From contig CP136064.1 in assembly GCA_032622095.1 (NCBI GenBank), forward strand, positions 254,698,484 through 254,762,483: DNA of 64,000 bases, in the 5' to 3' direction. Source of the DNA: Siphonodentalium dalli (Eukaryota > Mollusca > Scaphopoda > Gadilida > Siphonodentaliidae). Of the stretch, positions 18,637 to 56,370 are shown piece after piece (position 1 is the stretch's first letter; each line of letters opens with the position of its first letter). Made by a program: the position numbers and the translations under genes. The notes under the pieces are model-generated. The model worked only from the letters and a program-made list of their open reading frames with translations. It had not been told where the DNA came from and did no database searches.

Positions 18637-18740
18637 CTTTTGGCCGATGGCTATATTCATTGATGTTTGTTCCACGAAATTGTGACATTGGGGCCAGGGA
18701 CGTGGCTAGAGGGTCTCCGTTGGGCTGCATTCGCACATTG

Positions 18741-24824: not shown

Positions 24825-24967
24825 CTTTTGTTTCCCTGTGTTTACATCTTTTGGTGGCATTGGTCTTCTGCGTTTGATGACAAGCTTGGCTATGCATGCA
24901 CACATACCAATCAGAATGCCACATGTTATTCCCAGAATAACAGACATGGCTGTAATGAATTCCCGTT
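24825..24967 (-). CDS. Mucin-like gene 2, transmembrane exon
   Basis: The 143-bp exon follows a good acceptor (TTCTTCTTTCGCAG) and ends at the donor AAAAG|GTAAGC. It starts with two bases of a split codon and holds 47 codons. The middle is a hydrophobic helix (MSVILGITCGILIGMCACIA) followed at once by the basic stop-transfer KLVIKRRRP, so the protein is predicted to be a single-pass type I membrane protein with a short cytoplasmic part. The two-base start fits the one-base end of the mucin exon at 25951, which keeps the frame open across the junction. The next intron is phase 0. The short tail seen here has no tyrosine motif; the rest of the tail must come from an exon not identified. Confidence 0.75.
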
Positions 24968-25163
24968 CTGCGAAAGAAGAAAACTAAAATGCACACAGCT
25001 GCCAATATTGTTATGTTGTATTCTTCAATCACAAATTAGTGCTATTCCATGTTTGTCAATGTACAAGAAACTACATAGAACGGAATATCCAAACAAGCCT
25101 GTCCAAACATACGCGACTACTTGCCAACAACACCAAAGGGAACTATATATGTTAGGTATTAAT

Positions 25164-25945
25164 TAGTGACCTGTTTTGGGACATAATTATATAACTTGCA
25201 TGATGAAAAGAAAATGCGATAATGCGAATATTCTTAATCCGATTAATCTGATTTCACTCTTTGGAGAAACAGTTTGCGAGTACGTACTGCTACTGGAAAA
25301 GTACTCTTATTTGCGTAACATATTTTATGGATAGTTTCGTGCGTACGTAATCTTTCAAAATAATTTGCCACATTGACTGCTCGATTTAGTCACAGCAGGA
25401 CACATAAATACACGAAATACTAACATGCATCTCTGTATCATAGTATAGTAATCAGAAATACATAATAAAGCAAGACACAATATAATGTTAATCATTGTGA
25501 CCATCATGTGGAGGTGACATATGTATGTTGAGCTGCGTTGAGTATACTTTAGTGACTTTTTACGATATATATATTAGCTGAATAGTGAAAATAAAATATG
25601 GAATTACGAATAATCGAAATCCAATTAACCCAACACATATGTGCGAGTAAGTACTGCTATGTTATAAGCACTATCTTCTTTGCGTAACATTTTGTCATTT
25701 TCAGAAGTCCTGCGGTTGTTACGTATGCAATCGTTCAACCTCACTGCTCGGTTTAATCACATCATGACTCATTAACATACAAAATACAAACATGTATAAT
25801 TATCCGTTAGTATACTAATACGAAATAATTACTAAAGCGAGATATACCTGCGCCAGCCATTGTCGACATTTAGAAATGTGAAGAATGCTCGTTACTTCAG
25901 CGTATGGAAACGACAACAAGCACTTTAGTGACATATACTTTTGTA
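25164..25945. repeat. Intronic direct repeats, about 370-bp unit
   Basis: Two diverged tandem units lie in the intron between the mucin and transmembrane exons of gene 2 (25164-25548 and 25550-25925). They share TTAGTGAC, GCGAGTA-GTACTGCTA, TTTGCGTAACAT and CACTGCTCGGTTTAATCAC-type segments. A third beginning TTAGTGACATA occurs just before the splice donor. Confidence 0.6.
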
Positions 25946-25950
25946 CTTAC

Positions 25951-28900
25951 GCGACTGGTTTTGAGCTTTGCCGTTTATTACGTTTGTTGTCCGCGTTGAT
26001 GTAGTAGTGCCGTCGGTAGTGATTGTAGTTGGTGTGGGTGTCGTCGTAGTTGCTGTGGCTGTAACTGGGGTGGGTGTCGTAGTAGTTCGTGTGGGTGTAG
26101 TATGTGTTGGTGTCGTAGTATTTGGTGTGGATCTAGTTGGTGTCATAGTAGTTGATGTGGATGTAGTTGGTATAGTTGCAGTTGTGGTGGGTGATGTAGT
26201 ACTCGGTGTAGTTGTAGTTGGTGTCGTACTAGTTGGTGTCGATGTAGTAGGTGTGGTTGTAGTTGGTATGGATGTTGTTGGTGTTACATTAGTTGTTGTA
26301 GTAGTTGGTGTGGATGTAGTAGGTGTGGGTGTTGTAGTAGTTGGTGTGGGTATAGTTGGTGTGGGTGTTGTAGTATTTGTTATGGACGTAGTTGGTGCGG
26401 GTGTTGTAGTAATTGGTGTGGATGTAGTACGTGTGGGTGTTGTACTAGTTGTTATGGGTGTAGTTGGTGTGGGTATAGCTGTCGTAGTAGTTGATGTGGT
26501 CGTAGTTGGTTTCGTTGTAGTTGGTGTGGATGTAGTAGGTGTGTGTGCTGTAATAATTGGTGCGGATGTAGTGGGTGCGGTTGTTGTAGTAGTTGGTGTG
26601 TATGTAGTAGGTGTGGGTGTTGTAGTAGTTGGTTTGTGCCTAGCTGGTGTCATTGTTGTTGGTTTGGTTGTAGTTGTTGTGGGTGTTGTAGCTCGTTTGG
26701 GAGTTGTAGTTGGTCTGTGTGTCGTAGCGGTTGCTGTCGTAGTAGATTGTGTGGTTGTAGTTGGTGTGGATGTAGTTGGTGTGGATGTAATAGCTGTGGG
26801 TGTAGTTGGTATGGCTGTAGTAATTGGTGTGGCTGTAGTTGGTGTGCATGTATGTGTGGTTGTAGTTGGCACGGACGTAGTAGGTGTGGGTGTTGTAGTT
26901 AGTGTGGATGTAATATGCGTTGTTGTAGTTGGTGTGGTTGTAATAGGTGTGGATGTAGTTGGCGAGGCTGTAGTAATTGGTATGGTTGTAGTTGGTGTGA
27001 ATGTAGTAGGTGTGGTTGTATTTGGTGCGGATGTAGTAGGTATGGGTGTTGTAGTTGGTGTGGATGTAGTTGGTTTGGGTGTTGTAGTAGTTATGATTGT
27101 AGTTGGTGTGGGTGTTGTAGTTGGTATGGGTGCAATTGGTGTCGTATTAGTTGGTTTGGTTTTGGTTGGTGTGTGTGTTGCTGTTGGTTTTGTTATTGTT
27201 GGGGCGGGTGTTGTAGTTGCTGTGAGTGTTGTATTCGGTTTGCGTATAGTAGTTGGTGTGGTTGCAGTAGTAGGTGTGTTTGTAGTGGACGGTGTGGTTG
27301 TAATTCTAGTCGTAGTCGTTGTGGCTGTAGTGGATGTGTGATTTGTAGTAGATGATGTGTGTGTTGTAGTTGGTGTTGGTGTTGTCGTAGTTGTTGTGGT
27401 CGTAGAAGTTGGTGTGATTGTAATATTTCGTGTCGTAGTAGTTGATGTTGTAGTAGTTGGTGTGGTCGTAGAAGTTGTTAGTGTTGTAGTAGTTGGTGTC
27501 ATAGTAGTTGCTGTGGTTGTAGTTGGTGTGGATGTAGTAGGTGATGGTGTAATTGATGTTGTATTAATTGTTGTTGTAGTTGGTGCGATTTTAGTAGGCG
27601 TGGGTGTTGTAGTAATTGGTGTGGTTGTAGTTGGTGTGGTTGCACTTGGTGTGGTTGTAGTTGGTGTGGTTGTTGTAGTTGGTGTGGTTGTATTTGGTAT
27701 TGTTGAAGTAGGTGTTGGTGTAGCCTGTGTTGTAGTAGTTTGTGTTGTTGTAGTTCGTGTGGTTGTAGTTGGTGTGGATGTAGTTGGTGTGCGTGTTGAA
27801 GTAGGTAGCGTTGTAGTAGGTGGTGCGGTTGTAGTTGATGTGGATGCAGTAGGTGTGGGTGTAGTTGGTGTTGGTGTAGTAGGTGTTGTAGTCGTTGCTG
27901 CGAATGTAGTAGGTTTGGGTGTTGTAGTAGTTGGTGTGGTTGAATTTTGTGTGGTTGTTATAGTAGTTAGTATTGTGGTAGTTGGTGCGGTTGTAGTTGT
28001 TGTGGTTGTAGATGTGGATGCAGTGTGTGTGGTTGTAGTTGGTGTTGTAGTGGTTCTTGTAGTACTTGGTGTGGATGTAGTAGGCGTGGATGTTGTGGTA
28101 GTTCGTGTGGTTGTAGTTCGTGTGGTTGTAGTAGTTTGTGTTGCTGTAGTTGTTGTGGGTGTAGTTGGTGTGGTTTTAGTTGATGTAGTTGTTGTAGCAG
28201 TTTGTGCTGTTGTAGTTGGTGTGGTTGTAGTTTGTTTGGCTGTAGTAGGTATAGGTCTAGTTGGTTCTGTAATAGTTGGTGAAGTAGTATGTTTGGGTGT
28301 TGTGGTAGTTGGTGTAGTAGTTGGCGTGGATGTAGTAGGTTTGGGTAGTAGTCGTGTAGTAGTTGATGTTGTTGTGGTTTGTGTGGTTGTAGTTGATGTG
28401 GTTGTAGTTGGTGTCGTTGTTGTTGTAGTTGGTGCAGATGTAGTAGGTGTGGGTGTAGTTAGTGTTGTTGTTGTTGTAGTAGTGGGTGCAGATGTAGTAG
28501 GTGTGGGCGTAGTTGATGTTGTAGTAGTTCTTATTGTAGTAGTTGGTGCGAATGTAGTCGGTATCGGTGTTGTAGTAGCCGATGTGGTTGTAGTTGGTGT
28601 TGTTGTAGTATGTGTGGATGTAGTTGGTGTTGTTGTAGTAGATGTGGATGTAGATGGTGTGGTTTCAGTTGGTGTTGTTGTAGTAGGTGTAGATGTAGTT
28701 GGTGTGGTTGTAGTTGGTGTTGTAGTAGTTGGTGTGGATGTAGTAGATGTGGGTGTTGTGACAGTTGGTGCTGTTGCAGTTGACGTTGTTGCAGTTGGTG
28801 TGGTTGTAGTAGGTGTAGATGTAGTTGGTGTGGTTGTAGTTGGTGTTGTAGTAGTTGGTGTGGATGTATTAGATGTGGATGGTGTGACAGTTGGTGCTGA

Positions 28901-29943
28901 TGCAGTTGGCGTTGTTGCAGTTGGTGTGGTTGTAGTAGGTGTAGATGTAGTTGGTGTGGTTGTAGTTGGTGTTGTAGTAGTTGGTGTGGATGTATTAGAT
29001 GTGGATGGTGTGACAGTTGGTGCTGTTGCAGTTGGCGTTGTTGCAGTTGGCGTTGTTGCAGTTGGTGTTGTTGCAGTTGGCGTTGTTGCAGTTGACGTTG
29101 TTGCAGCTGGTGTGGTTGTAGTTGGTGTTGTAGTTGCTGGTGTGGAAGTAGTTGGTGTCGTAGCAGTTGGTTTGGTTGTAGTTGATATTGTTGTAGTTAC
29201 TGTAGTTGTATGTGTTGTGGTTGTAGTTTGTGTTGTAGTAGTTGGTGTGTGTGTAGTAGGTGTGGGTGTTGTGGCAGTTGGTGTGGCTGCCGTCGGTGTG
29301 GTTGTTGTAATAGTTGGTTTTGTTGTAGTTGGTGCTATTGTAATTAGTATTGTAGTAGTTGCTGTGGATGTAGTAGGTGTGGGTGCTGTGGTAGTTGGTG
29401 TGGTTGTAGTTCGTGTGGTTTTTGTAGTGGTAATTGGTGTTGTTGTTGTAGTAGTTGGTGTTGTTGTAGTTGGTGTTGTTGTAGTTGGTGTTGTAGTAGT
29501 TGGTGTGGATGTAGTAGGTGTGGGTGTTGTGGTATTTGGTGTGGTTTTAGTTGGTGCAGTTGTTGAAGTAGCTGGTGCTGTTGTAGTTGGTGTTGTTGTA
29601 GTTGATGTGGTGGTTGCCGATGTGGTGGTTGCCGGTGTGGTTGTCGTAGTTGGTGTTGTTGTAGTTGGTGTCGTTGTAGTTGGTGTGATTGTTGTAGCAG
29701 TTGGTGTTGTTGTGATTGGTGTAGTAGTAGTTGGTGTCGTATTAGTTGGTGTCGTAATAGTTGGTGTCGTAGTAGTTGTAGTTGTTGGTCTGGTTGTAGT
29801 AGTTGTAGTAGTTGGTGTGGTGGTAGTAGTGGGTGTGTTCGTAGTAGTTATGAACATCCACCAACAGGTACCACAACAAGTTTCTGAATTTGACTCACAC
29901 GAGCTAGCCTGACACCATGAAGCTTTGTCGCCATACTTGCAAT
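25951..29943 (-). CDS. Mucin-like gene 2, PLAC-like plus Thr/Pro mucin exon
   Basis: A single 3,993-bp exon, bounded by the acceptor TGTTACAG and the donor TCGC|GTAAGT, both phase 1. Its first ~27 residues are a six-cysteine module beginning [10 protein letters not shown] and ending CCGTCWW, with the spacing C-x8-C ... CC-x2-C of PLAC-type domains (found in ADAMTS and papilin relatives). The other ~1,300 residues are almost entirely Thr and Pro with some Ser and Ala, in TTTTPTTTT-like repeats. This is a mucin-type stalk expected to be densely O-glycosylated and extended. A roughly 123-bp higher-order repeat occurs three times near 28680-29050. The exon lacks stops for its whole length, against a background where similar blocks at 44480-47125 are broken, which argues that it is under selection. 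The short ending ([10 protein letters not shown]) links to the transmembrane exon. Confidence 0.8.
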
Positions 29944-30640
29944 CTGTAACATATATATATATATATATACATATATTCTCAAGACATTGTATAATCTATG
30001 AAATGCCATTTAGACTATATATATAACTAACTTGTTTCTACGTGCTGTTTGTGTATACATCACATAGAATACACAACAGGGCTAGTTTTGCATTGTGTAT
30101 GTCTCTTATATGGATCAGATTCACAATTATATCAACCAGTTTAACGTTTCAGCTTATCCTGGAATATAATGTGGAGCAACACAGCGAATTTGTGCGTGAT
30201 ATGTTGATAATTGGTTGATACTGAATCGGAGCAGGGATGTTCGGTTCAACAAGCAAGCTCGGAGTGTTTAATGACTACTCCCGTACTCAGTCCATCACAA
30301 TAGACGGAAGCGATTGCTATCGCACCCGTGCACGCTCGCAATGTTCAATGCACGGGTGGCAAAATGTGCACTCGTCCCTCTTGGGAAATTGATTATGATG
30401 ACTGCTATCGTTGATTCAATATTGAACTATTTGAAGGTTTACTTTGATCCTTTTATGTTTCCATGCAATTATGGGCATGTGAAACTGTGACTACATGCAG
30501 ACAGACATGTAAGTGTAGTGTCCCAGTATGACATATTTTTAAAAACACCCAACTTACGATTATATTACAGGTGCACTTACACCCGTCTTATGAATTGCGG
30601 GAGCAAATAAGTGCCCTTGTTGTGTTTTCCTCCTGGCAAG
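29944..30640. other. Intron of gene 2 (part)
   Basis: Begins (minus strand) upstream of the acceptor with a (TA)n run at 29950-29970. Segments near 30080-30160 resemble the intron just upstream of the paralogous exon at 44156 (around 44310-44375), which supports gene duplication. An interspersed repeat, GGATGTTCGGTTCAACAAGC, lies at 30235-30300. Confidence 0.5.
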
Positions 30641-30643
30641 GAC

Positions 30644-30880
30644 TGTCCGTACTACACACATGGATGCTCAGTCCAACAAACAATCTGAGACTGTTTAACT
30701 AATAAGCCCGTACTACGCACAGGGATGTTCAGTCCAACAAACAATCTGAGACTGTTTAACTAATAAGCCCGTACTACGCACAGGGATGTTCAGTTCAACA
30801 AACAATCTCAGACTCTGTAATGAATACTCGTACTCTATGAAGGGATGTTCAGTTAAACACACCAGCTAAGTCAATTTAGT
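30644..30880. repeat. 61-bp tandem repeat, about 4 units
   Basis: Units start at 30662, 30723, 30784 and 30843 and contain GGATGTTCAGTCCAAC, AATCTGAGACTG and CCCGTACTACGCACA. The same motif occurs as single dispersed copies at 30235-30300, 33575-33690 and 63855-64000. Confidence 0.85.
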
Positions 30881-33246
30881 GAATTATACCACAGTACATG
30901 CATGCGGAGCCATTGTTCGCTTATCTGCTAGTTTGATTTAATCAGAACAGTATAAACTAAAACTCGACCACTCAGGTGTATGATAGAAAATCATGTCAAA
31001 ACTGATTCAGAATCAGAGTATAGACTTTACGGCATATTTCCCACATTTAGTTTGGCATATATTTATACTGGGCAGTGCTAGATATTATAGTCATTTGTAG
31101 ATGTAGCTGGTGTGTGTATTGTTCACTGTGTCGGCCGATGCAGACAATCAGATCGCACGTGACTTACTTCACATCGCGTGGCATCAGCTAAAATATTCTC
31201 ACGTTTTGTGCCTGGGCACTGGGCATCACTTTTATATTTAATGATGCCATTAAATGTTATTTTACTGGCACTCTATAGAATTAACTAGAACAATACACTT
31301 GAACAGAACATCTAATACTTCGGTCGATTCCATAAATTTTCGCCAGATCCAGGTGTTGGTAGACCTATTAGAAAACTGACTGCCAACGGAATGCGGTCGA
31401 GTACTGTTGTTGAGTTAAGGTGTCGGCTAATTGTTAAGTTAGATTATTCCTGAAGATAAGCAACTTTTAAATATTTAATCGGTGATTTAGAAGCGAAAAC
31501 AAATAGAAAGTCAGCATAGGAAGGTTTTCTCAATGCCAGCTGCAATGATCGACGTCCCCATACCGTTTCATCAGTTTTACGGTTTTGTACCGTTATTGTA
31601 TGTGCCTATGAAAATTGTCTAAGTTAAATATTTTCGTGATCCACAGTCATGCCGTCGAAATTCAATAGTATATTTATCGGCGACCATATTATATACGACA
31701 ATGATTCCGTACAGTATGACTGAATCTGAATCTGCTGATATTTAATATTTATTATTAATCCGGTAAACAGTCTGTGTTATGCGGGTCCCTATAACTTGAG
31801 TATGTTATCCTCAAATCCGGGTTTAAGTTCCTGCTTTGGCACTCACCTATTTTATTCGCCATTTTGAATATTTTAGCGCAGGCAAATTTCAAACGATTGC
31901 TTTTTTTTTTGTTGAAAATGTTACCTTTTCATTTGTGGACAGTAACTGTTGTTAAGACGGTCTGATTTTGGTAACCGGACAAGTTTCAATTCTGCGAAAA
32001 TCGGCTTAATCATTGACAATTTCCACTAAATTCGAGAGTAGAGATTCATGCCAATCAATCATGGCATGATCTGAGGTCGGCTGTAATCTGACTTCATTCG
32101 ACGTAGTACTGATGTTGAAATTGACAGTGATGTGACTATCATAACACTGGCACACTAACTGACACAAGATACAGGTACAATTAATACGAGCTTCGATATC
32201 AACCAATAGTGACAATAATAACAACAACGAGCTGCTATTACTATTAGATTGTTGACGGTGACCTGTTTTTCAATCCAGTTGACAGTGTTCCGATTGTTTC
32301 AAAGCACATGCATGTACATTTACAAGAGAGGCATACGTGTACTGTACGCACCAGTGTAATTCACAAGAGCTTCAATATCAACAACAACACCGTAAACAAT
32401 GAACTGACGCCGCGCAGTGACGGGTGATCACATATTTACAATCCCAACTTACATGTACAAATACAACTTTACAAATACATGGACCAATTCATCCCGTATT
32501 CATCAATTTTCATTGAAACGTGTGGATATGAGACATTGTCATCAATCGCCATGTTATCGTCAGGTTATCACGACAATTTACCAGGAGTGCACCATTGGTT
32601 GGATGTTCTTAGCAAACTATCTTTGGCTGACTCACTGATATTGATACTAAGTGTCGTGATACCAGTATACAGTTTGATGCATCATGCTGTAAAATTTCAT
32701 CGAGAAATGTGCGACTACAGAAGAGCATTGTCGCCAAGTCACCGCGCACAGTTATTATCGGATCTGCTGTTGTTTCGAAGATTTCAATCCCAACCAGCTC
32801 TATTTTCGCGCCCAATATCGCAATAATATGGCAAGTGGAAATGCTTATAAGCGTGTCGATTGTGATATTATTGCAATATTTTGCGCTTAATATCTCAATA
32901 TTTTGCGCTTCATATTGCGCTCAAAATTGTGATGTATAGTTCAAATGATTGCTTCTATATTGTTTATTGTATAAATAGAGACAATGTGTTAGATGTGTAT
33001 ATAAGTATAGTTGTAAATGCTATATGTACACTATATGTACACGATATGCACAGTATTTATCTAATATCAATCTAAGGGCAACCACTTAGTGGATAAATGT
33101 TTTACAACCAATTATTGTATACATTCCATGTACTAACAGCTTATGAGTAAACTGTTTGCATATATGTTAAAACATTCGGTCAGCGAGTTCTACTTCGTTT
33201 TGGTGATTTTAGTTGTGATAGCTCATGTGGATATAAGAAGTTTTTA
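30881..33246. other. Gene 2 intron or intergenic, no exon recognised
   Basis: Lies within the intron between exons at 34093 and 29943. Includes a dispersed repeat at about 32150-32760 related to 19165-19490, and AT-rich sequence. Short frames at 32006 and 32417-32826 fall in this repeat and are not called. Confidence 0.45.
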
Positions 33247-33535
33247 TTATTCCTCTTCGCTACAACTTTGGTAAGCTACACGTTGGTTTGATCGTGCACT
33301 TGTAGATGCTATGAGCACGTGAGTCAGGTGTCCTACATCGTCAATAGAACAAACGCTACATGTGTCCTCGAGTGTCGCCACAAGTGGCCATGGACTCAAT
33401 GTAATGTCTCGTACCTGAAAAGCACCACATTTAGAGCAGCGCAACATACCAATAGCATCAGCGACGTGTAAATACTTTGCTGTCACATATGCTTGTGTAG
33501 GATCAATTTCTACCAGTGATGTCTCCTACCGATTG
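33247..33535 (-). pseudogene. Cys-rich coding fragment, unknown family
   Basis: The minus frame reads through LVEIDPTQAYVTAKYLHVAD, then LRCSKCGAFQV, then TCSVCSIDDVGHLTHVL, ending SCSEEE at a stop. Two CxxC pairs and a His suggest a small zinc-binding module. An acceptor-like CAATCGGTAG lies at its start (33533) and a donor-like CAG|GTACGA in the middle, so it may be one or two real exons. A second, degenerate relative lies at 39345-39470 on the same strand, with a shifted frame. I do not recognise the family. It sits in the gene 2 intron on the same strand, so it is either an insertion or an old gene remnant. Confidence 0.4.
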
Positions 33536-33574
33536 CCGAGAGAGGTTAGCCACAGTGTATGAGAGCTGCGTGTA

Positions 33575-33690
33575 GGATATGTTCAGTTCAACACACAAGC
33601 TCAGACTGTTAGTAAACACTCCCGTACTACACAACTGAGGTACCATTGTGCGTTTCAGCGAATATAATCAACTAAAACTAGATCAATCAA
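33575..33690. repeat. Dispersed repeat related to the 61-bp array
   Basis: Contains GTTCAGTTCAACACACAAGC, CTCAGACTGTTAGT, CCCGTACTACACAAC and AACTAGATCAATCAAA. Closely matches 63860-64000 at the right edge of the window. Confidence 0.7.
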
Positions 33691-34092
33691 AGGTATAATA
33701 GCGAATCATGTCAAAACTTATTTAGAATCAGAGCAGCGACTGAACGGCATATTTCCCGCATTCTGTTTACCACTTTTCCAAACATTAGCCACTACTCTCC
33801 GCAATTTCACGATATTGAATTTGTTATAAAAATGTGATAGAATGTGGCGATGATATGTACACTGTAGCCAGTCAATCTCTGACGCAAAGCGTCAGACATG
33901 ATAACTAAGTGTCAACAACGTAACCAGGCACGCATGTTTTCGTCAATAAGCACAACTAGTTTGTCGTTTGTGGTGTCAAGCATTGGGTCTGTTGTGAAGG
34001 ATTTGACAACAATAACATCCTGCCATTCGCATGATATCTGATTTGTAATCTCCGAAATGGAGTTGGTTTGAAAATGTCCACACAAAACGTAC

Positions 34093-34212
34093 CTGTTGGA
34101 AGAGTCGGTTTGAGGAAATCGTGGCATGTTTGGCAACAATTAGTGTCGTTTAGATAACAACCAGTCGCAGTCAGGGTTGAACACCAAGATGCTTTGTCTC
34201 CGTACTCACAAC
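34093..34212 (-). CDS. Mucin-like gene 2, PLAC-like exon
   Basis: A 120-bp symmetric phase 1-1 exon: acceptor TTTTTCCACAG, donor CAACAG|GTACGT. Its 39 whole codons begin [18 protein letters not shown] and continue to NCCQTCHDFLKP, a six-cysteine module spaced C-x8-C-x7-C-x6-CC-x2-C, most like a PLAC domain. Such modules are small disulfide-bonded extracellular units. The exon is a near-duplicate of 51476-51595, and homology extends into both flanking introns (about 33870-34500 against 51245-51850). It lies upstream of, and in phase with, the mucin exon of gene 2. Further 5' exons including the signal peptide are not identified. Confidence 0.75.
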
Positions 34213-38030: not shown

Positions 38031-39882
38031 GTGTGTAGTGACAAACAGTAAACCGCATATGGAGGCAATGCAATATCCAGGAGCGTCTTCAACATGCATA
38101 TATGTGCATCTATATGTTGACTAAAATGCAATTGATGCTAAAGATTCAATTTTACATTTCAGCCCCTTTCTGTAACAAGTTTTTTTTTATAGTTTCTTGG
38201 ATACAAAATAATAAATATGAATCGAAGACCCCAGTCAAGAAGAAACACTTCTATCAAATAATATTAATTGTACTTTTTGTAAATTTTTCTGGTATAGTAG
38301 ATACGATCAATTTGGGACATTGTAAAACTTGGGGAACGTTTGGAGCATAACACGTGGGAGAACTCTCTCTAACTGACATCGCCTGAACGTTTCAAATTGT
38401 TGTAAAAAATAGTAACAGAAATATACCAATTGATAATAGCATTATATAAGAAAATGTTGATATAAAATGAACATTAATTGATGGAAGCTTTTCCAGACAG
38501 GACTGGTGTCTCAGTTTTATTATTTTTTACCCCGGACACTATATAAAATTTAGTAACAAAGAGATAGTCTATCTTTAACCATGAATTAAAATTTCTGGTG
38601 TTAAACATCGCAGACTATGGTATAAATGTGATACATGTACCAACAAACTGGCGGCTCAACTTCAATGCGAACATTTTGGAAATCACGGTATGATTCGGTA
38701 GAAGAAATTCCTTACAAATCAAAGTAGTGAATATTAATGTAAAAAGCCATGGATATCTCACTGCCTCGTTATAAATGCACATACTAATATCAAACATATT
38801 ATATACTGTGCAACACTGATTATATTTTGCAGAAGTATAACTTTCAGAGCATTTCCTTCACCATAGCACAACGTTGCAGGCCAATACATCTACATATTGC
38901 AAAATAATAGATGCTGAATAGAGGTACAGAATTACATTGTGTGGGACCACCAACTGTGACCTGAATTAGATTGATGCATATTATGTACACGTACCATACC
39001 AATGATGGTGAAAATAGATATATGTTGAATATTAATAGTTATACAGTATGGTTGAATATATCTCGGACTCATAAATGTGTCGATGTCAGTGAGTACTGTC
39101 GGACGTAACAGACAACAATCGGAAATGATGAATTTATTAGAAATAATAAAAATACTATACATTTAACATTTCTTACGTTAAAATCCATTCTAGAATATTG
39201 AATGGATCAAAAAGAAATTCAAGCTGTCAAAGTAATCATTGATACTCAGTTGATAAATAGTATTAGTCCTCAAGGGAGATACATGTATTTATAATTTCAC
39301 ACTCTAAGATAATAGCCAGGTTCTGCCGCAAATATGTCATAATGTTTTGACCGTGTATTTGTAAGCATCATGATAATGTGAGTCAGGTGACCTCCATTGG
39401 CAATGGCAACACACATTACAAGTTACATGTAGATGTGGTGAACATGGCTAAAACAACTGATACAGTGTAGTCTCGACATTAGCCGCATTAAAATGGTTTT
39501 AAAAACATGTAATTAAAGTAAGCACACAGTTTAGGTACTGAAATTTCGAATCAATAAAATGGTTGCACGTTTTATATCCCTCTGAATTGAAATAAAATAG
39601 CCCTTCAAAATCATGATCTGAATGCACACATAGTGTTTGAAACTTTGAGAAGTTTATATGTGCACAGTGTTTCCTGAAGAAAAATCAGGGACACTACTGA
39701 TGTCTGTACATGTATGCACATGGGTTTGTTCCAAATGGTTTTGGAATGATTAATTTTCTAAACTCAATATTGTTGAAATTCCTTTTCAATAACAGTGTAT
39801 GGGATCTTGAACATTATGTGTGTCTTCAAATTAAATTAATGTGATGGATCATAATTCTAATCAATATGCTGTCTAACTTCAG
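38031..39882 (+). other. Putative intron
   Basis: AT-rich. Includes a degenerate minus-strand relative (39345-39470) of the Cys-rich fragment at 33247-33535, recognisable by the shared stretch GTGAGTCAGGTG. No other feature. Confidence 0.4.
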
Positions 39883-40290
39883 GAAACAACATATTTGAGT
39901 GTAGCTGATAAAACATATGCTTCAGTGTGGGCATGTATGCCAAGTGTGTGTAAGAATATTAACCTAAGTGCAGGACATAGCTATTGTACAGCTTCCATAA
40001 GTAAACAAATGCTATTAAATTCTTCAACATCACATATGAAACCACTTTCAACATCAACGCCAAGTAAGAATGTGGATAGAGAATGTAAGTCAAACAAAGA
40101 TACGGAAAGTGATTGTGAGAGTGTCAACACAGAGAATGAGAAAAATGATTCCCATTGAGATTATGTTAATATGGAATCTGACAGTGATAGCGATAGTGAT
40201 TGTTCAGATGGTGAGAATCAGAGTGTGGAAAAGAATTTTTTTAAAGAGAGAAAATTAATAGTGTTCGAAAGCTGCTTAGAAGAGTTATTG
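39883..40290 (+). pseudogene. Plus-strand exon with in-frame stop, transposon-derived-like protein (part 2)
   Basis: Follows the acceptor TCTAACTTCAG and stays in one frame from 39883 to about 40290 except for one TGA at 40156-40158. Before the stop come ETTYLSVADKTYASVWACMP and a Ser/Thr-rich stretch. After it, in the same frame, come an acidic run (ESDSDSDSDCSDGEN) and ERKLIVFESCLEELLNFC. The last phrase resembles, from memory, the start of a conserved region in uncharacterised, possibly transposon-derived metazoan proteins, where a cysteine pair normally follows. Here the similarity stops at about 40290, exactly where the antisense tail exon of gene 1 begins. Truncation plus the stop make this a pseudogene. 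Assignment to a family is uncertain. Confidence 0.45.
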
Positions 40291-40582
40291 AACTTCTGCA
40301 TATATGTCATTGTCCTGCTCTGCAAGTGGTGCTGTATATGTCGGCACGGGATAGGGGTCTTGCGTCCTGACCAACTGAAATCCAGTTTTGTACAATGCAG
40401 ACTCTCTTATGTCGGCGTAAACACTCTTGTAAACACCTTCTGCATGTATGTTATTGTTCGTCTTTGCACGTGGTGTTGATTCTGTTCTTTTTCCGATACA
40501 TCCTATAACCACATATGCATAGAACAGCCATAGCGAAAAATCCAATTGGAATCGCTACCAGATATGGAATCATCTTGAATAC
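40285..40582 (-). CDS. Mucin-like gene 1, transmembrane and tyrosine-motif tail exon (frameshifted)
   Basis: After the acceptor TTATTTATAG, the exon starts with two bases and then FKMIPYLVAIPIGFFAMAVL, continuing CICGYRMYRKKNR: a transmembrane helix with a basic stop-transfer. The two-base start fits the one-base end of the mucin exon at 42969. That frame stops at TAA about 15 codons after the helix. A second frame, shifted by one base, carries a tail to 40285 with several tyrosine motifs: VYKSV, SVYADI (fits the ITIM pattern S/I/V/L-x-Y-x-x-I/V/L), ALYKTG and DIYAEV just before the stop. The natural reading is helix plus tail with one indel between about 40545 and 40470, from an assembly error, an undetected tiny intron or a loss of function. 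Tail motifs imply SH2-domain binding. Confidence 0.6.
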
Positions 40583-42380: not shown

Positions 42381-42469
42381 TACGGGACGCTTAGTGGTCG
42401 GACGTGGTGTCATGTGAGGCTCAGCTAGATCAACATTAGGCACCATATCCGACCACTAGGCGTCCCATA
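42381..42469. repeat. Short inverted repeat, 29-bp arms
   Basis: Arm 1 contains GGGACGCTTAGTGGTCGGA and arm 2 contains TCCGACCACTAGGCGTCCC, separated by 31 bp. Probably a small hairpin MITE in the gene 1 intron. Confidence 0.7.
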
Positions 42470-42968
42470 ACTTATAATACAGTACCACGTAATCAAATTC
42501 AAGCAGTTAACCTCAAATCATAAATTACTTAATAGAATTAATATTCAAACTTATCTGTCAGATAAACGACATTCTTTCTGTTCACAAATTCAACATTTAA
42601 AACAAATACAGAATATTAAGATTCACTCGGCCAAAAGTGTATGATATTGTCAAATGAATTAGGAATATATCTTGACAGAGGCATTATAAATTAATTATAA
42701 ATGAATTGCAAGTGTTCTTATTATTATTAACTATAAATAATAACTTCCATCACAACGTATATTTCTGTTATTATTCTTTATCTGTTTATCATCGTTCTTG
42801 TTGCATGTTAGTACAGTTATTTTACTTGATGTATGTGCGTATTATGTAATCTCATATCCTTTTTTTTAATAAAACTCCATATTCTCTTCTATAATAAATT
42901 ATTATGTAATTTGAGGTTTGCATAGAAAATAACGCGTTTTCGTTTTATAATCTTAGTACATGTATTAC

Positions 42969-44156
42969 CTAACTCGTCGTTTTCATCATCACCCTTGCCT
43001 AACGGAGTCGTTATGTTGGCTGTCGTAGTGGCGGTTATCTTCCTTGCCGTGGTCGCTGTTGTTGTCGTGATTGTAGTGAACATTGGCGTCGCTGTTGTCG
43101 TTGGTGTTGTCGTCGTCGACGGTGTTGTCGTCGTCGTTGTTGGTGTCGTCGTCGTTGTTGTCGTTGTTGGCGTCGGCGTTGTTGGTATCGTCGTCGTTGT
43201 TGGCGTCGATGTTGTTGTCGGCGTTGTCGTCGTCGTCGGTGTTGTCGTCGTCGTCGGTGTTGTCGTCGTTGTTGGTGTCGTCGTTGTTGTTGTCGTTGTT
43301 GGCGTCGGCGTTGTTGGTGTCGATGTTGTTGTCGTTGTTGGTGTCGTCGTTGTTGTTGTCGTTGTTGGCATCGGCGTTGTTGGTGTCGTCGTCGTTGTTG
43401 GCGTCGATGTTGTTGTCGCTGTTGTCGTCGTTGGTGTTGTCGTCGTCGTCGGTGTTGTCGTCGTCGTTGTTGGCGTCGGCGTTGTTGGTGTCGTCGTCGT
43501 TGTTGGCGTCGATGTTGTTGTCAGCGTTGTCGTCATCGTCGTTGGTGTCGTCGTCGTTGTTGGCGTCGTTGTTGGCGTCGTTGTTGGCGTCGGCGTTGTT
43601 GTCGTTGTTGGCGTCGGCGTTGTTGTCGTTATTGGTGTCGGCGTTGGTGTTGTTGTTGTCGTCGTCGGTGTTGGCGTCGGTGTTGTCGTCGTTGCTGTTG
43701 GCGTCGGTGTTGTCGTCGTCGTTGTTGGCGTCGGTGTTGTCGTCGTCGTTGTCGTCGTCGTCGTTGTCGTCGGCGTTGTTGACGTCGGTGTTGTTGTCTT
43801 TCCGGTTGGCGTCGCTGTCCTCGTTGACGCCGTCATTGTCGGTGTTGTTGTCGTCGTCGTCGTTGTTGTGGTTGTTGGTGTTGTTGTGGTTGGTGTTGTG
43901 TTAGTCGTTGGTCTGGTTGTAGGTGTTGGTGTTGTAGTAGTTGGTGTGGTTGTAGTTGTGGGTGTTGTTGTCGTAGTTGGTGTTGTTGTCGTAGTTGATG
44001 TTTGTGTAGTAGTGTGTCTTGTAGTTGTGGCTGGTGTGGTTGTAGTAGTAGTAGTTGTGAACATCCACCAGCACGTACCACAACAATTTTCTGGAGCGAT
44101 ATAAAGTTCACACAAGCTTGCATCACAGCCATCAGCTTTGTCACCATACTTGCATT
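42969..44156 (-). CDS. Mucin-like gene 1, PLAC-like plus Thr/Pro mucin exon
   Basis: A 1,188-bp exon: acceptor GTTTGTTACAG, phase 1, and probable donor TTAG|GTAATA, phase 1 (2 + 395 codons + 1; GG|GTGATG slightly upstream is an alternative with the same phase). The six-cysteine module starts ECKYGDKADGCDASLCE and ends CCGTCWWMF, close to that of the gene 2 mucin exon. A Thr/Pro stalk of about 340 residues follows, with TTTTPT repeats. It is shorter than in gene 2 and written with many ACG and ACA codons, so the two stalks expanded separately. The last residues are acidic (GDDENDEL) before the membrane exon. The product is predicted to be a heavily O-glycosylated surface stalk. Confidence 0.75.
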
Positions 44157-44479
44157 CTGTAACAAACATACATCTATTGTCAGAACACAATATACTACAT
44201 GAGCTAGCTGGTTCAACAATGAATAGAAACAACGTATGTCTACAATTTTGTGCTACCATATATCAATTATAACATATAATACCCCAAAATCTAGCTTAGT
44301 TAACACTTATACCTTGCATTACATATGACTCTTGTATGGATTGGATGCATATTGCAATCCGTTTAAAACGTTGTCCAAAATTGGCCTCACTAACAATGGA
44401 GTTAATGAAATAGCACAATAAGAGCATTGCGACTGGAGCGTAGCGACATATCAGACGTGTCAATGAAGGTAGATATTTG

Positions 44480-47125
44480 GCTGCAACTTGTGTTTGTTCC
44501 TGGTTCGTGTGGGTGTTATAGAAGTTAGTGTGGTAGTATTTCGTGTCGTGGTAGTTGGTGCGGTTGTCGGTAATGTGTATGTAGTAGTTGCGAGTGCTGT
44601 AGCAGTTGGTGTGGGTGTTGTAGTTGGTGTCGTAGTCGTTTATGTGGTTCTAGTTGGTGTGGTTGTAGTTTATGTGGATGTAGTATGTGTGGAAGTAGTT
44701 GGTGATGTAGTATGTGCTGTAATAGTTGGTGCGGATTTAATTTGTTTGTGTGCTGGAGTAGTTGTTGTTGTTGTTAGTGTGATTGTTATAGTAGTTGGTG
44801 TTGCAGTTGTTGTGGTTTTAAGCGTGGATGCAATTGGTCTGGTTGTCGTTGGTGTTGTGGTAGCTGTAGTAGTTGGTGTAATAGGTTTGGGTTTTGTGGA
44901 AGTTGATGTGTTGTAGCTGGCGTGGTTGTTGTGTTTTTTTGGAGTAGCTGGTGTTGTAGTAATTGTTGTTGTAGTTGATCCACATTTAGTATGTATGTGT
45001 GTTGTAGTAGTTGTTGTGGTAGTAGTTGGTGTGGATGTTATAGTAGAGTAGTTGGTGTTGTTGTAGTTGTGGTTGTAGTTGTTCTGGTGTTGTAGTAATT
45101 GTTGTTGTAGTTGGTCCGGATATAGTATGTATGGGGGTTGTTGTATTTGTAGTTGGTGTGGTTGCTATAGTAGTTGGTGTTGTTCTAATTGATGTGGTTG
45201 TAGTTGGTATGGTATTGGATGTGGTTGGTATGAGTGTTGTAGGCGTTAGTGTTGTAGTATTTGGTGTAGTTGGAGTTGTTTTAGTATTTGTTGTAGCTGT
45301 TGCTGCGAATATAGTAGTTGTGGTTGTTCTAGAAGTAGGTGTGGTTGTAGTTAGTGGTGTTCTTATAGTATTTGGTGTTGTTGTAGTGATTGTAAATGTA
45401 GTAGGTGTGGGTGTTTTGTAGTCGATATAGTTGTAGTCGGTGTTTTTGTTGTAGTTGATGTTATTGTTGGTGTTGTCAGTGTTGTTGTAGTTGGTGCTGT
45501 TGTAGTTGATGTGGTTGTTGTGGTAGTGTTATTATAGTAGTTGCTGTTGTAGTCGTTTTGCGGATGTAGTATGTACGGGTATGCTGTAGTTGGTGTGATT
45601 GTAAATGTAGTAGGTGTTTTGTAGCCGATGTAGTTGGTTTGGTTGTTGGTGTTAGTGTTGTTGGTACTGTTGTTGTTGTTGTTGTAGTTGGTGTGTTTGT
45701 GTATGGTGTGGTTGCAGTTGGCGTGGTTGACGTGGTAGTATTGTAGTAGTTTATGTTGTAGTCGTTGTTGCGGGTGTAGTATGTACTGGTTTTATTTTAG
45801 TTGGTGTGGTTGCTATATTAGTTGGGGTTGTTGTAGTTGTGGTTGTAGTAGTTTTTGGAGTAGTTTGTCCGGATTTAGTATGTATGTGTGTGGTAGTAGT
45901 TGGTGTGGCTGTAGTTGGTGTGGTTGTAGGTGTGGACGTAGTTGGTGTGGTTGTAGTTGGTGTAGTATGTTTGGGTGTTGTGGTTGTTGGTGTGGTTGTA
46001 ATTGGTGTGGTTTTGTAATATTAGTTGTTGTAGTTGTTGTAACTAGTGTGGTTGTAGGTGGTGTTCAGGTGTTAGTTGTTGTAGTCCACGATGTGGTTGT
46101 TGTACTAATCGATGTTGTTGTAGTGGTGTGGTTGTTGTAGTTGATTTTGTTGTAGCTTTTGTAATTTTAGTTGGTGCAGTTTTTGTGGTAGGGCTTGTCA
46201 GTGTAGTATGTGGTGTTGTTGTAGTTGGTGTGGTTATATTTGGTGTAGCTGTAGTTGGTGTGGTTGTTGTTGCAGTTGGTTCTGTTGAGTATATGTGGAT
46301 GTAGTTTGTGCTGTGGCACTTTGCGTTGTAGTAGTTGGTGTGGTTATTGTTGCTGTGGTTGTTGTAGTAGTTGACTTTCTAGTAGTTGGTGTGGTTGTAG
46401 TTGGTGTATTTGTCGTGTAAATGCGTGTAAATGTAGTTTGTATGGTTGTTGTAGTATTTGGTGTTTTTGTAGTTGATGTGGTTGTAGTTGGTGAGTATGT
46501 GTGGGTGTAGTTTGTTTTGTAGCTGTTTGTGTTTTACAGTTGGTGTGCTTGTAGTTTCTGTTGATGTAGTAGGTGGGTGGCTTTAGATATGGATGATGCT
46601 GGTGTGGTTGTAGTTGGTGTTGTCGTATTCGGTGCGGTGTAGTATGTATGTGTGTTTTGGTAGTTGTTGTGGTTGTATTTGGTGTGCTTATAGTTGCTGT
46701 GATTGTAGTTGGTGTTGTTGTAATTGGTGTGATTGTTGTTGTAGTTGGTGTTGTTGTAGTTGATGTTGTAGTAGTTTGCGTTGTTGTAGTTGGTGTGGGT
46801 GTATTTGGTTCTGTAGTAGTGGACGTGGATGTAGTATATGTGGTTGTTGTGGTAGTGTGTGTTGTTCTGGTTGACGGTGTTGTTGTAAATAGTGTGGATG
46901 CAGTTGGAATGGTTGTAGTTGATGTTGTCATAGTTGGTGTAGATGTTCCAATAGTTAATGTTTTTGTTGATGGTGTGGTTGTTGTAGTTGGTGTTGTTGT
47001 AGTTCGTGTGATTGCAGTTGGTGTTTTTTTGTGGTTGGTGTGCCGGTGTGGTTGTAGTTGGTGTGGTTTCAGTTGGGGTGGTTGTTATTGTTGTAATTGG
47101 TGTTGTTGTCGTAGTGGTATACACT
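44480..47125 (-). pseudogene. Decayed Thr/Pro mucin block
   Basis: About 2.6 kb of the same GTTGTAGTTGGTGTG-like (minus strand: Thr/Pro) sequence as the gene 2 stalk, lying in the gene 1 intron between 51476 and 44156. Unlike the two intact exons it is broken into short frames by many indels and stops. The longest pure Thr/Pro stretch is at 46931-46590. It starts near 47125 with [12 protein letters not shown] but has no six-cysteine module before it and no clear splice sites. Likely a former mucin exon that lost constraint. Confidence 0.7.
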
Positions 47126-47582
47126 TTCCTTATATTACCTATCTAAACTGATCCAAAAGGCACAGGTTAGTGATGATTGTTTTAATCTTTCTACACATTG
47201 ACTTTTATCAAGTATTCCCCCAATAAATGAATATCTATAATCCTTAAGACAATCAATTACTCTAGCTTAAATTAAATTAAGTGAAATAATAGTAGTGTTC
47301 TTCGGTTTGTTTACGGTTACCAGTGACTTCATGATTAACAATACCCTTGTCCCCTGATAACGAACTCAGTCACGTTTGTAACGGAAAGTGTGAGAAATTT
47401 CGATTTTGTTGGCCGTTTTGGATGACATGCTAAACCTATTTTCCAATATGGAGCGCATGTAATGCCGTATCTATAGTCAGTTGTGATCACTGGCCCGACA
47501 TGCGCGGCACAAATATGAAACTACCGTTCTGTATAACGTAAGTCTCACTCAATCTTTTGTAGCCATATGTGTTCAGTCGAAA
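47126..47582. other. Gene 1 intron sequence
   Basis: No feature recognised. Confidence 0.4.
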
Positions 47583-48083
47583 TCTCATATATATTTTGAA
47601 GACCTCTGTCTGTTTGTCTGTTTGTCTGTTTGTTTGTCATTTATACAAATCTACGATTCTCGACCGATCGGGACGAAACTTGGTACGTGTGTGAAGTTTG
47701 ACCAGGCGGTGGACGTTGTCGTATTGGCGAGCCCGTGCGGCGCCGGCTTCGCGCATGCGCAGACGATATCTCGGAAACGGGTGGAGCTATCGACTTGAAA
47801 TTTGCTATGTGAATGTATCTTGCCCCGGATACGAATTTTATCGGATCGCCGAGCCCGTGCGACGCCAGCTTCGCGCATGCGCAGACCAGATCTCGGAAAC
47901 GGGTAGAGCTATCGACTTGAAATTTGGTTTTTGAATAGCCCGGACAACGTCGCCCGGACAACGTCGGGCTCATCGACTTGAAATTTGGTTTATGAATAGC
48001 CCGGACAACGTCGGGCTGGGTAGAGCTATCGATTTGAAATTTGTTTTTTGAATAGCCCGGACAACGTCGGGCTCATCGGCTAG
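47583..48083 (+). mobile_element. Helitron-like element, subfamily with CCCGG hairpin
   Basis: Starts TCTCATATATATTTTG after an A and ends CTAG before a T, the A|T insertion pattern of Helitrons. The 3' hairpin GCCCGGACAACGTCGGGC lies 7 bases before CTAG. The hairpin and neighbouring text (TCGACTTGAAATTTG) are repeated about three times towards the 3' end. The interior (GACCGATCGGGACGAAACTT, GCGCATGCGCAGAC) recurs at 60107-60500. No RepHel protein, so non-autonomous. Confidence 0.75.
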
Positions 48084-48620
48084 TCTATTATATATTTTGG
48101 AAGATCTGTGTGTGTGTTCGCGATGAACGCGAAAACGGCCGAGCCGATTTGGATGAAACTTGGTATGTGGGGGTATTTTCGGCCGGGGTGACATAGGCCT
48201 ATTAATGTGCCCGTGCGACGTGACCTTTGCCTTGAAATCTGGTAATTTCAAGGTCAAACGCCCCGATGAACTCGAAAACGGCCGAGCCGATTTGGATGAA
48301 ACTTGGTATGTGGGGTACTTTCGGTCGGGAAGTGGCATAGACCTATTAACTTGCACGTGCGATGTGACCTTGACCTTGAAATCGGATCAATTCAAGGTCA
48401 AATCGCGAATTTGATGGTATTTCCACGAAATTTGATACATAGGGTTACTTTTGTCCACTGATTGTTTATCCCGTTACCCCGACCTGAATTTGACCTTCAA
48501 AATGATCAATTCAAGGTCAAATCGGGTAAAACAGGATTGATTTCGACGGGTACTTTTGTCGGGTACTTTTGTCTGGGCAGTGTTTTGAACGGGTCAAATG
48601 GGATAATGGGATAAAAAAAA
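48084..48620 (+). mobile_element. Second Helitron-like copy, head-to-tail (3' end not found)
   Basis: Begins TCTATTATATATTTTGGAAG directly after the CTAG of the previous copy. The interior has repeats of GAAAACGGCCGAGCCG, TTTGGATGAAACTTGGTATG and TTCAAGGTCAAA. No CTRR end with a hairpin was found, so the right limit (about 48620) is only where the similarity to such repeats fades. Confidence 0.5.
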
Positions 48621-49253
48621 ACAGGCAATGGTGGGTATAATGAATCATGAGCCTCGGGAGTTAGACGTTATATTTTCGGGCTTTTAAAAATATATAACGC
48701 GAATTTTTTTAGAGGAACTTTAGTATTGTCTACCGACTTATATTTTGGTATGTTACTACAATATTGTCTGATTGATGCAATACATACTTATTCCAGTGAA
48801 TCGAACTGATATGTTAGTTATCTGATGCTGAAAGAATGTTAAATCCAACTAATATTAACACAAAAAAACATTGTAAACATATACTCAACTCGGGTAGAAT
48901 TTTCTAGATACACAAACGGAAATGATTCCCTCAATTAGAGTGGCTTACATATATAAGTTATACATAAAAATAATGCTACGGGCTGCCAATTTGAAGATCA
49001 TGCTTATGCAAAATAACTTTTTTTAAATGCTATATTCCCATCCGATCTCCCTTCTTTAAGCATAAACACAAAGAGTATTTAGTAACGCTTCCTCTGACTT
49101 TCCATGATAAGATATATACCCACAAAAGTTATAGCTTGTCCCGTGTTTAACGATGGCGGGCGTCTAAGCACTGACAAATATAACAAAGAGCGTTCGTGCA
49201 TACACTCTCTTCTTTATATGTGATCTGTTCGATGCTGGGTCGTCCAGAATTGT
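48621..49253. other. Gene 1 intron sequence
   Basis: AT-rich, with AAAGAGCGTT at 49185-49194. No gene. Confidence 0.4.
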
Positions 49254-49580
49254 ATTTATCACTTAATTAACCCACAAAACCAGCTTCATAATGATTGGTA
49301 AGATACACGTGTAATATTGCCGCGTGCAATGGCGTCACGCAATTATTTAAATGACTTGCGATTGCTGAGGTTAATTATTGTTGTTTTCGATGAATACTTC
49401 GCGTTGCTTCGCCTTTATTTGATCATGTGATAAAGGGTATCTCAAACTCGTTCTATATTATACGTAATTTATCAACCTCGTCCACTAAATTCTATTTGAG
49501 CCTCAGTACACCTCGGCTCAAATCGAACTTAGTGAACTCTGTTGATAAATTCGGTATAAAATATAAACTCGTGTGAGAGT
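49254..49580 (-). mobile_element. Foldback MITE, family FB1, copy 3
   Basis: Reverse orientation. TTTATCACTTAATTAACCC end, GATCATGTGATA, and the hairpin with TCCACTAAATTCTATTTGAG and CTCAAATCGAACTTAGTG arms. Confidence 0.75.
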
Positions 49581-51475
49581 TGCCGGGGCTAAAGTGATGT
49601 GAAACCCTCTGCATGCTGTGGATATTTGGTGGGAATAGAGAATACACGTATTCTCATAAATGGTATACACATGGCATCACAAATCATGCGTCTTACACAT
49701 GGAATATAAGTAGTGGCTCACCTTGTCGGGTCGGAGCAATTGTCAATTTGTTTATCGCGTTTAAACCGTCCCACCAATAAAGAAGTATTTATTTATTTAC
49801 GTATATTTCAGACGTTATAGCATGAAATATGAACATCATGAACACATTAGTTCGCGAAAATAAAAGAAGACAATTGTGTTTACACACATAAGTGTCAATA
49901 AATCTAGTGGGTTAGACAAAGAATTTGAGGACACCTGGTTATCACATCAGATATAGATTCTTAAAGACATGTCCAGGTGCTCTTCTGTTCTGGCGCTATA
50001 TACTGGCTAATTATTGCTATGCAAGTATAGCAGCTACATGAGCCTGACATAGCGGGATTTTTAGTAATTTATGTTAGGCGGTGAGTCTGTTCTAAAAAAT
50101 GAAATAAATCCTCTCTGGCAGATATACCCTTGTCATATGTCACTATTGGACGATCCTGAAATGTCACGTACTACTGACTGCGTTTTCTTTTATCTCAGAA
50201 GTAACTATATTTGACTGCACACTGCGACCACTATTTTTACCGGCCTGTTGTACATTTCCATATATCTTGACAATTGTAACTTATTTTGTGGAAACTATAT
50301 TGAATGGGACAGACTCAATTGTGTTATAATATATACATGCGCCATTCGAATGTGCAATCCTCTGACGATTCAATGTTCCTCAGTTTGTAAGAATATATCG
50401 CAATAAAGGTGGGCCTAAAAATACCACTTCTTCTGATGGTACTGTATTGTCATGATGTACGGATTCACCTGTTAAAACAAAAACTGTGTTTGCAAGTGAC
50501 TGAACAATTTCACGCCTTACATGTTACAAAAAAGTATGCCACTAAGATATTTTACGTTTACATGTACATAAATTTGAGCTTTCACTGTGAAACATGGAGC
50601 TTTGTTGTTCTTTTTGTGGCTTAAAAGGCCATGGCGATTTATTTATTAGAATGGTCGAAATTAGTATTACTCATAACTGAATAGTGATGTGTTGGCTTAT
50701 CAGCTATTACCAGTATCATTTTGTATTTACAGCCATATTTATACAGTAGTTAGTGAAAGGTGAACACATTACGCGTGTGCAGTCTTTTCCGGATTAAATT
50801 TATCACTTTATCTATTGAGGATTTGCCTTTCAACAAAACTATGATCGTAACATAAGAACTAAGATGCATTTTTCAGTTACGAATAATCCTTGTTTCGAAC
50901 ATTCAAAAACCTATGAATCGTAATGCCTACTGGAAAATCATATTGTCGCCATGGGAACCTGGCTAGTTCTATGGTAAATTAGCAAATTAAGAGCAAAAAA
51001 TTGGTATTGATCCATGAAAAATACCATTGGTCTGACCTTTATTAGTTACGGTCTTGATATTAATTAATCGGTGCTGAACTGTAAACAATATAACGGTCTG
51101 AAAGTTACTGGTTACGGTCTGCCAGTTACTTAAACGGTTTTATACCGTGGAACATGTTACGGCCTTGTCATATGTTTAACGGTCAAATGTTGGCAGCGAT
51201 GTTGCGCGGTATCAGACCGTTAAAGCGACGTATTATTTCTAACAGTGCAATCTCTGACTCAATGCGTCAGACGTGATAACTAAACATCGAGTGTCAACGA
51301 CATAACTGGAGGGCGCATGATATCGTCATTAAGCATAACCAGATTTTCATTTTTAGTGTCAATCATTGGGTCTGTTATACAGGATTAACAACGAAAACAA
51401 CCTTCCATTCGCATGATATCTGAGTTCTGGATCTCCGAAATGGAGTTTGTTTTAAAATGTTCACAAAAATCGTAC
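49581..51475. other. Gene 1 intron sequence
   Basis: Carries a repeat at 50508-50690 shared with 22012-22180. A set of AACGGTCTGAAAGTTACTGG and ACGGTCTGCCAGTTACT phrases lies near 51090-51190. No exon recognised. Confidence 0.45.
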
Positions 51476-51595
51476 CTGTTGGGAGATTCGGCTTGAGGAA
51501 ATCGTGGCATGTTTGGCAACATACAGCGTCGTTTAGATAACAACCAGCCGCAGTCAGTGTTGAGCACGTGGGAATTTTGTCTCCGTACTCACAAC
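51476..51595 (-). CDS. Mucin-like gene 1, PLAC-like exon
   Basis: A 120-bp symmetric phase 1-1 exon with acceptor TTCTTTTCACAG and donor CAACAG|GTACGA. Its 39 codons begin CEYGDKIPTCSTLTAAGC and run to VCCQTCHDFLKP; all six cysteines match the gene 2 exon at 34093-34212. Substitutions are confined mostly to loop positions (ASW to IPT, NDTN to NDAV), and length and phase are preserved, which suggests it still codes. It lies 7.3 kb upstream of the gene 1 mucin exon. Exons further 5', including the signal peptide, are not identified. Confidence 0.72.
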
Positions 51596-56317: not shown

Positions 56318-56370
56318 TCTATATATATATTTTGAGACTTCCGTATATATATATATATGTGTGTGTATGT

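Follow-up and report, generated by a model that had tools for sequence, protein, structure and literature searches.

Two neighboring sets of exons on the minus strand of contig CP136064.1 (C4 below) of Siphonodentalium dalli encode cysteine-rich modules, mucin-like stalks and membrane anchors, and they raise the question of whether each set is a gene in itself, as an earlier note had proposed, or a part of something larger. They lie in the window analyzed here, a stretch of 64,000 nucleotides (C4:254698484-254762483); positions without a contig prefix are window coordinates. The analysis is based on the genome sequence alone, with splice joins predicted from it. Genome-wide searches covered 2.23 Gb in 9 contigs, and a direct comparison of the window and the DNA upstream of it covered 144 kb. 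Our answer is that the window exons most likely encode the C-terminus of a metalloprotease that is MIG-17/ADAMTS-like and belongs to an expanded family. To the overall reading, in which they are the 3′ end of one M12B protease gene with the two exon sets, or cassettes, as alternative last exons, we assign a probability of roughly 55%. Taken separately, the link to a protease is highly probable, and the use of the two cassettes as alternative ends is a prospect that falls a little short of even odds.

Each cassette consists of a 120-bp exon with a six-cysteine module, an exon in which another such module is joined to a Thr/Pro-rich stalk, and an exon with a transmembrane (TM) segment. The exons, and the elements found among them, are as follows:

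51476-51595, minus strand: exon A1, a 120-bp six-cysteine module of phase 1-1, the 3′-most member of the module array
44503-47119, minus strand: decayed relic of a Thr/Pro stalk, with stops and with the Thr/Pro frame switching among three frames; about 68% match to stalk 2
42969-44156, minus strand: exon B1, six-cysteine module plus Thr/Pro stalk, 395 codons
40451-40581, minus strand: exon TM1, transmembrane segment and short basic tail, with the stop at 40451-40453
40285-40450, minus strand: tail-like frame with the tyrosine motifs SVYADI and YAEV, out of frame with TM1
34093-34212, minus strand: exon A2, a 120-bp six-cysteine module of phase 1-1 with mosaic flanks (array module 67214 on the 5′ side, 66825 on the 3′ side)
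25951-29943, minus strand: exon B2, a six-cysteine module with a long Thr/Pro stalk, 1330 open codons
24756-24967, minus strand: exon TM2, with a transmembrane segment, a basic tail and a read-through stop at 24756-24758

Both cassettes are present in the order that the earlier note described, with splice sites, and all junctions between their exons are phase 1. The junction coordinates it gave also stand, except that the first TM exon begins at 40581, not 40582. The joined frames are open across the junctions: cassette 1 is 1440 nt long, with a single, terminal stop, and cassette 2 is stop-free over the 4256 nt up to a donor after 24825. The proposed three-fold difference in stalk length was borne out (395 versus 1330 codons, or 3.4-fold), as was the difference in codon use, with ACG making up 41% of the Thr codons in stalk 1 and 5% in stalk 2; a divergence of the stalks through repeat change is supported. 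Stalk 1 is 71% Thr and 16% Pro (about 87% together) and stalk 2 is 60% Thr and 16% Pro (about 76%). In both cassettes a hydrophobic segment follows the stalk, as in a transmembrane mucin with predicted glycosylation. The third, frame-broken Thr/Pro stretch between A1 and B1 (44503-47119) had gone unmentioned. In bins of 150 bp, the reading frame is constant in 25 of 25 bins of stalk 2 and in all 6 of stalk 1, whereas the 17 bins of the relic are scattered over all three frames. Open stalks beside a frame-broken one are counted here in favor of a protease with two ends.

The idea of two stand-alone genes is not supported by the DNA upstream, where protease exons, cysteine-rich-like exons and more module exons precede cassette 1 on the same strand; none was found between the cassettes. 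The catalytic exons are found at C4:254.823 and 254.832 Mb, upstream of the module array and outside the window, about 93 kb from the first anchor. Their junction reads HELGH, exon boundary, SLGLPHDG (HELGHSLGLPHDG). Once spliced, they give HELGHSLGLPHD and then KFIMASS, with the M12B zinc motif HExxHxxGxxHD followed by IMASS, which we take to be Met-turn-like. With the joined catalytic exons as query, the best PDB match is ADAMTS-13 (8e-9), then snake-venom M12B proteases and ADAMTS-1/5, among the best 60 of 105 chains at E<=1. A cysteine-rich-like exon follows at C4:254.810 Mb on the same strand (region 111438-111572), 80% identical to an exon of a sister gene, and a second exon, assigned by eye to the disintegrin/cysteine-rich type, lies at C4:254.811 Mb. 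These upstream exons were located by comparison with the sister gene, which had been flagged weakly by PF13582 (E 0.6) and PF17771 (E 1.6); genome searches with PF13688, PF01421 and PF13574 recovered neither the head of the window gene nor that of its sister, and the catalytic exon of the window gene is absent from the PF13582 matches too. No catalytic exon was found between the cassettes, either among 23 genome-wide matches or in the 144-kb direct comparison, which gave no more than chance-like scores there. A single thrombospondin type 1 repeat consensus, of low sensitivity, gave a chance-like best match (E 0.14) in 154 kb. Order, strand, phase and the repetition of this arrangement at other loci point to the first cassette as the C-terminus of the protease.

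Three further 1-1 exons of the array of 120-bp modules lie outside the window, past its right end (C4:254762867, 254765192 and 254765581), and a divergent 1-1 module comes after them at C4:254.79 Mb. The modules are related to each other, as had been claimed, with similarity far above chance: when the array module 67214 was compared with the 144 kb, E was 6e-24 and 1e-23 for the two 120-bp exons, and 1e-6 and 1e-5 for the two mucin-linked modules. A genome-wide query with a single module gave 25 places at E<=10, and 9 of the best 10 fall within C4:254.39-254.77 Mb. In an alignment of 28 modules, which end in CC-x2-C, the six cysteines are invariant partly as an artefact of selection, because the motif by which the rows were chosen already demands C..GD..C..CC..C. 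Left out of the alignment were L034 (identical protein), L013 (a near-identical neighbor) and a further group consisting of motif misfits or wrong-strand chance matches (L010, L015, L016, L039, L055, L056, L057 and L058), of which at least L010 is interrupted by a stop.

The earlier label of these modules as PLAC-like, or possibly ShKT, found no support. None of the 28 matches PLAC (PF08686) or ShK (PF01549) in Pfam at E<=10, a negative in which HMMER filters may have lost weak short matches. Pfam searches with the modules returned no relevant family, only chance matches to others, and a PDB profile search with all 28 gave no chain at E<=10; membership in either family is therefore unproven. 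A fold model of A2 (AlphaFold with four window modules; predicted local distance difference test, pLDDT, 75; predicted template modeling score, pTM, 0.42) and its one Foldseek match, natrin at E 5.5, were too weak for use. By position and six-cysteine count, the modules are analogous to the PLAC module as described for MIG-17 and ADAMTS (PMC4856095, PMC4448532).

According to the earlier note, the two-module arrangement was duplicated as a block; however, TM1 and TM2 cannot be aligned with each other and thus constitute two anchor classes, and B2 is nearest to mucin-linked modules of other loci and A2, in its DNA, to array modules. B2 is 100% identical over 31 residues to a mucin-linked module at C4:273046532 and 97% identical to one at C4:254410525, versus 71% to B1. 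The DNA of exon A2 is 90.0% identical to module 67214 versus 85.8% to A1; its 5′ flank is 88.8% identical to that of 67214 versus 86.1% for A1, and its 3′ flank is nearest to module 66825 (85.5%, versus 78.4% for A1). By protein identity, A2 is nearest to A1 (82%), with module 67214 at 79%. On the 5′ side of A2, homology over about 1.6 kb leads to DNA upstream of module 67214; its two pieces are 80-81% identical, and a second comparison gave pieces of 80-83%. By these comparisons A2 did not arise by simple copying of A1, and the pattern suggests a duplicate whose start lay upstream of the array and which later shrank to one module or was converted by the array. The homology claimed for the intron flanks was found for the 120-bp exons (250-bp flanks, 86% on the 5′ side and 78% on the 3′ side), but for the mucin exons it is limited to about 21 intronic bases. 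Among nine array modules, the nonsynonymous rate (dN) is below the synonymous rate (dS) in 32 of 36 pairs and above it in four; for A1 and module 67214 the values are 0.132 and 0.080, respectively. With only about 24-26 synonymous sites per module, these ratios are not decisive.

The same exon types recur elsewhere in the genome. At E<=10 there are 23 catalytic-exon matches and 27 mucin-linked-module matches, of which the weakest may be chance and some of the 27 are array modules. The clusters are at C4:254.25-254.90, 273.0-273.2, 281.6 and 214.3 Mb, at C3:218.8-219.2 and 249.7-250.1 Mb, and at C1:90.87 Mb. At other loci, too, catalytic exons are followed by modules on their own strand, for example from C4:254506627 to 254476645 and from C3:249763247 to 249733968. 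A diverged paralogue at C4:273.15-273.22 Mb has stalk and TM1 followed by stalk and TM2, the order seen in the window, with no catalytic or cysteine-rich exon seen between its two cassettes; its first stalk and its TM1 are separated by DNA with one weak match to part of the catalytic query (E 0.003), in which the zinc motif is missing. This conserved order suggests alternative 3′ ends and, together with the unalignable TM exons, argues against a simple block duplication. At C4:273014366 there is an extra mucin exon, with anchor candidates that are unproven.

Another gene, at C4:281645207, has a catalytic exon 86% identical to that of the window gene and TM2 as the only anchor class found. On the TM2 side its DNA matches the window at 92.6% over 1855 columns. 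The 3′ part of its mucin exon is 78% identical to cassette 2, and the 5′ part, with the preceding DNA, matches the B1 side and also the relic stalk there (73% over 2714 columns). This single-cassette sister gene (C4:281590644-281645317) is thus an apparent hybrid of cassette 1 in its 5′ part and cassette 2 in its 3′ part, and its mixed matches fit recombination inside stalks, in either direction. For the family as a whole, a more far-reaching reading, which we hold to be less likely than not, is that of membrane-anchored ADAMTS/MIG-17-like proteases in which a gene has one protease head and two inherited alternative terminal cassettes that differ in stalk length, anchor and tail, their order being kept in diverged paralogues (one of them with a head devoid of the zinc motif) and stalk-to-stalk recombination giving rise to hybrid single-cassette genes.

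The proposed gene would thus be a single minus-strand unit of more than 108 kb for an M12B zinc metalloprotease of MIG-17/ADAMTS-like type, with its exons in the order catalytic, cysteine-rich-like, six-cysteine modules and two terminal cassettes of module, Thr/Pro stalk and anchor. Because the examined module/stalk junctions are phase 1, an upstream module could be joined in frame to either cassette, and the gap of about 6 kb between the cassettes is exceeded by several of the gene's introns, at 12-24 kb. Splicing to B1-TM1 would place the protease on a stalk of about 360 residues, probably O-glycosylated, with anchor TM1. Skipping of the B1-TM1 terminal exon and splicing to A2-B2-TM2 would place the same protease on a stalk of about 1,300 residues, with the other anchor and tail. 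Stalk length would set the reach of the enzyme from the cell surface, and the tail, with tyrosine motifs in the TM1 class, would set its trafficking. On the simplest reading, the two-ended layout would be old and its ends would serve as alternative last exons.

The anchors themselves belong to small classes. TM1 is found in three clear places, the window copy at C4:254738970 and relatives at C4:273172810 (87%) and C4:254582919 (77%), with two further C9 matches at E 0.09. TM2 is found in six, the last at E 0.3. The window TM2 either uses the donor GTAAGC after 24825 or is read through to the stop at 24756-24758. Its closest paralogues, L042 and L043, share the end residue and the last ten letters and do not have the GTAAG donor, so TM2 is probably a terminal exon; among the remaining three, L046 has a different end, and the motif used did not pick up L044 or L045.

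Several observations weigh against the proposed two-ended protease. The first concerns the very paralogue that supports it: its head, L064 (C4:273220420-273220527), is a weak catalytic match (E 0.21, 44%) with HALGV for HELGH. This catalytic-type exon keeps its frame, ends in phase 2 and stands upstream of intact-looking stalk and anchor exons; since the zinc motif is replaced, the paralogue is probably not an active protease, possibly a pseudoprotease, and this slightly lowers the weight that we give to alternative ends, to the overall reading and to the family-wide one. In addition, both anchor classes lie downstream in only 2 of the 23 catalytic matches. When anchors were counted before the next same-strand catalytic match, they were assigned for 6 of the 23, with one class downstream in four (C4:254342086, 281645207 and 273103643 with TM2; 254644119 with TM1). 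The tyrosine-motif tail downstream of TM1 is out of frame in the window copy and broken by an insert in the third TM1 copy, L032, whereas in L031 the tail and TM1 share one open frame of 157 codons; the window copy has either lost its tail or contains an assembly error. At the upstream end, PF17771 (45 matches, 7 above cut-off) did not recover the cysteine-rich exon of this gene, and that of the sister falls below the cut-off. The best-looking donor for joining the two cysteine-rich-like exons gives the wrong phase. Lastly, no signal-peptide or prodomain exon was found when 20 kb upstream were set against 10 kb from the 281.6-Mb paralogue; apart from the catalytic exon, the two shared one conserved adjoining stretch and nothing more.

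Among other explanations, the one that fares best has cassette 2 as a gene of its own without a protease: a membrane mucin of ADAMTSL-like type that arose by partial duplication of the protease gene, its promoter and first exon being located within the 6-kb gap. In keeping with this, cassette 2 has an intact 1330-codon exon and splice sites, and the duplicated 5′ block, which carries no protease exon, stops about 1.6 kb upstream of the first array module. The gap also holds a signal-peptide-like open reading frame (ORF), with starts at 38797 and 38782 and a phase-1 donor, where 0.5 such start codons are expected on both strands (24 in 2 x 144 kb) or 0.25 on the minus strand (6 in 144 kb). This excess is, however, one ORF, which may be chance and is not convincing as a first exon of cassette 2. 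Moreover, the gaps of the two double-anchor loci have no convincing exon in common, their best matches being 30 columns of DNA (E 0.006) and a protein match at E 0.004 with an internal stop. We consider a protease-less gene unlikely. Rather improbable as well is that cassette 2, or cassette 1, is an unexpressed, non-functional partial duplicate: decay is seen nearby, in the relic stalk and the shifted tail, the paralogue head at C4:273220420 has no zinc motif, and an open stalk is by itself weak evidence of use because Thr/Pro codons seldom become stops directly, but both stalks hold a single frame in every bin, unlike the relic, and TM2 with its stop is retained here and in the two nearest copies.

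Repeats are also found elsewhere in the window. Positions 12168-14936 and 14938-17706 are a tandem duplication of 2769 bp at 100% identity, which is very recent or an assembly artefact, and each copy contains an array of a 49-bp repeat. A second tandem duplication spans 17587-21694, with pieces 93-99.7% identical and arrays of 33-, 46- and 23-bp units, and about 35 copies of a 32-bp unit occupy 4217-5324. Two long ORFs, at 56248-57363 (plus strand) and 61362-62158 (minus strand), look like 3′ parts of retrotransposon reverse transcriptases; neither had a Pfam match at E<=0.1.

The proposed protease with two anchored ends has partial counterparts among known systems. It would resemble the ADAM family in having an M12B protease that is anchored in the membrane and ends in a cytoplasmic tail; unlike ADAMs, it has cysteine-rich exons that are ADAMTS-like, a weakly supported assignment, and a mucin stalk and six-cysteine modules before the anchor. 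MIG-17 of C. elegans is described with the domains SS-Pro-MP-DI-PLAC (PMC4856095). It and the mollusc proteins named 'ADAM family mig-17' share with the window gene an M12B protease, a disintegrin-type region and a C-terminal module of six-cysteine type, and here, as in MIG-17, no thrombospondin repeat was found. However, MIG-17 is described as secreted, with one PLAC, and the limpet protein P-vulgata_8 of this name is likewise given as secreted (PMC7333891), whereas the gene studied here has at least five module exons before the cassettes, mucin stalks and anchors. The likeness to MIG-17 is one of described layout, and the anchors are a misfit. ADAMTS7 and ADAMTS12 are described as ADAMTS proteases with a mucin domain and a six-cysteine PLAC, as here, but with the mucin among thrombospondin repeats (PMC4448532). 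The same source describes ADAMTSs as having no transmembrane and cytoplasmic modules; here TM1 and TM2 are in phase with the stalks, and their splice to the protease is predicted. Drosophila matrix metalloproteinases, which are another family, are reported in released and membrane-tethered forms and so are likewise differently anchored (PMC5353688), whereas a TM segment is present in both ends predicted here, which are told apart by their stalks and tails. Among the matches listed in a literature search, no title or abstract opening described a layout of this protease, six-cysteine, mucin and anchor type.

If our reading is correct, the annotation of these exons would change from stand-alone mucins to protease tails, and a core of ADAMTS/MIG-17 type on mucin stalks and anchors would blur the split between ADAM and ADAMTS. 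Two stalk and anchor ends would then let the animal select, via splicing, the reach and trafficking of one enzyme.

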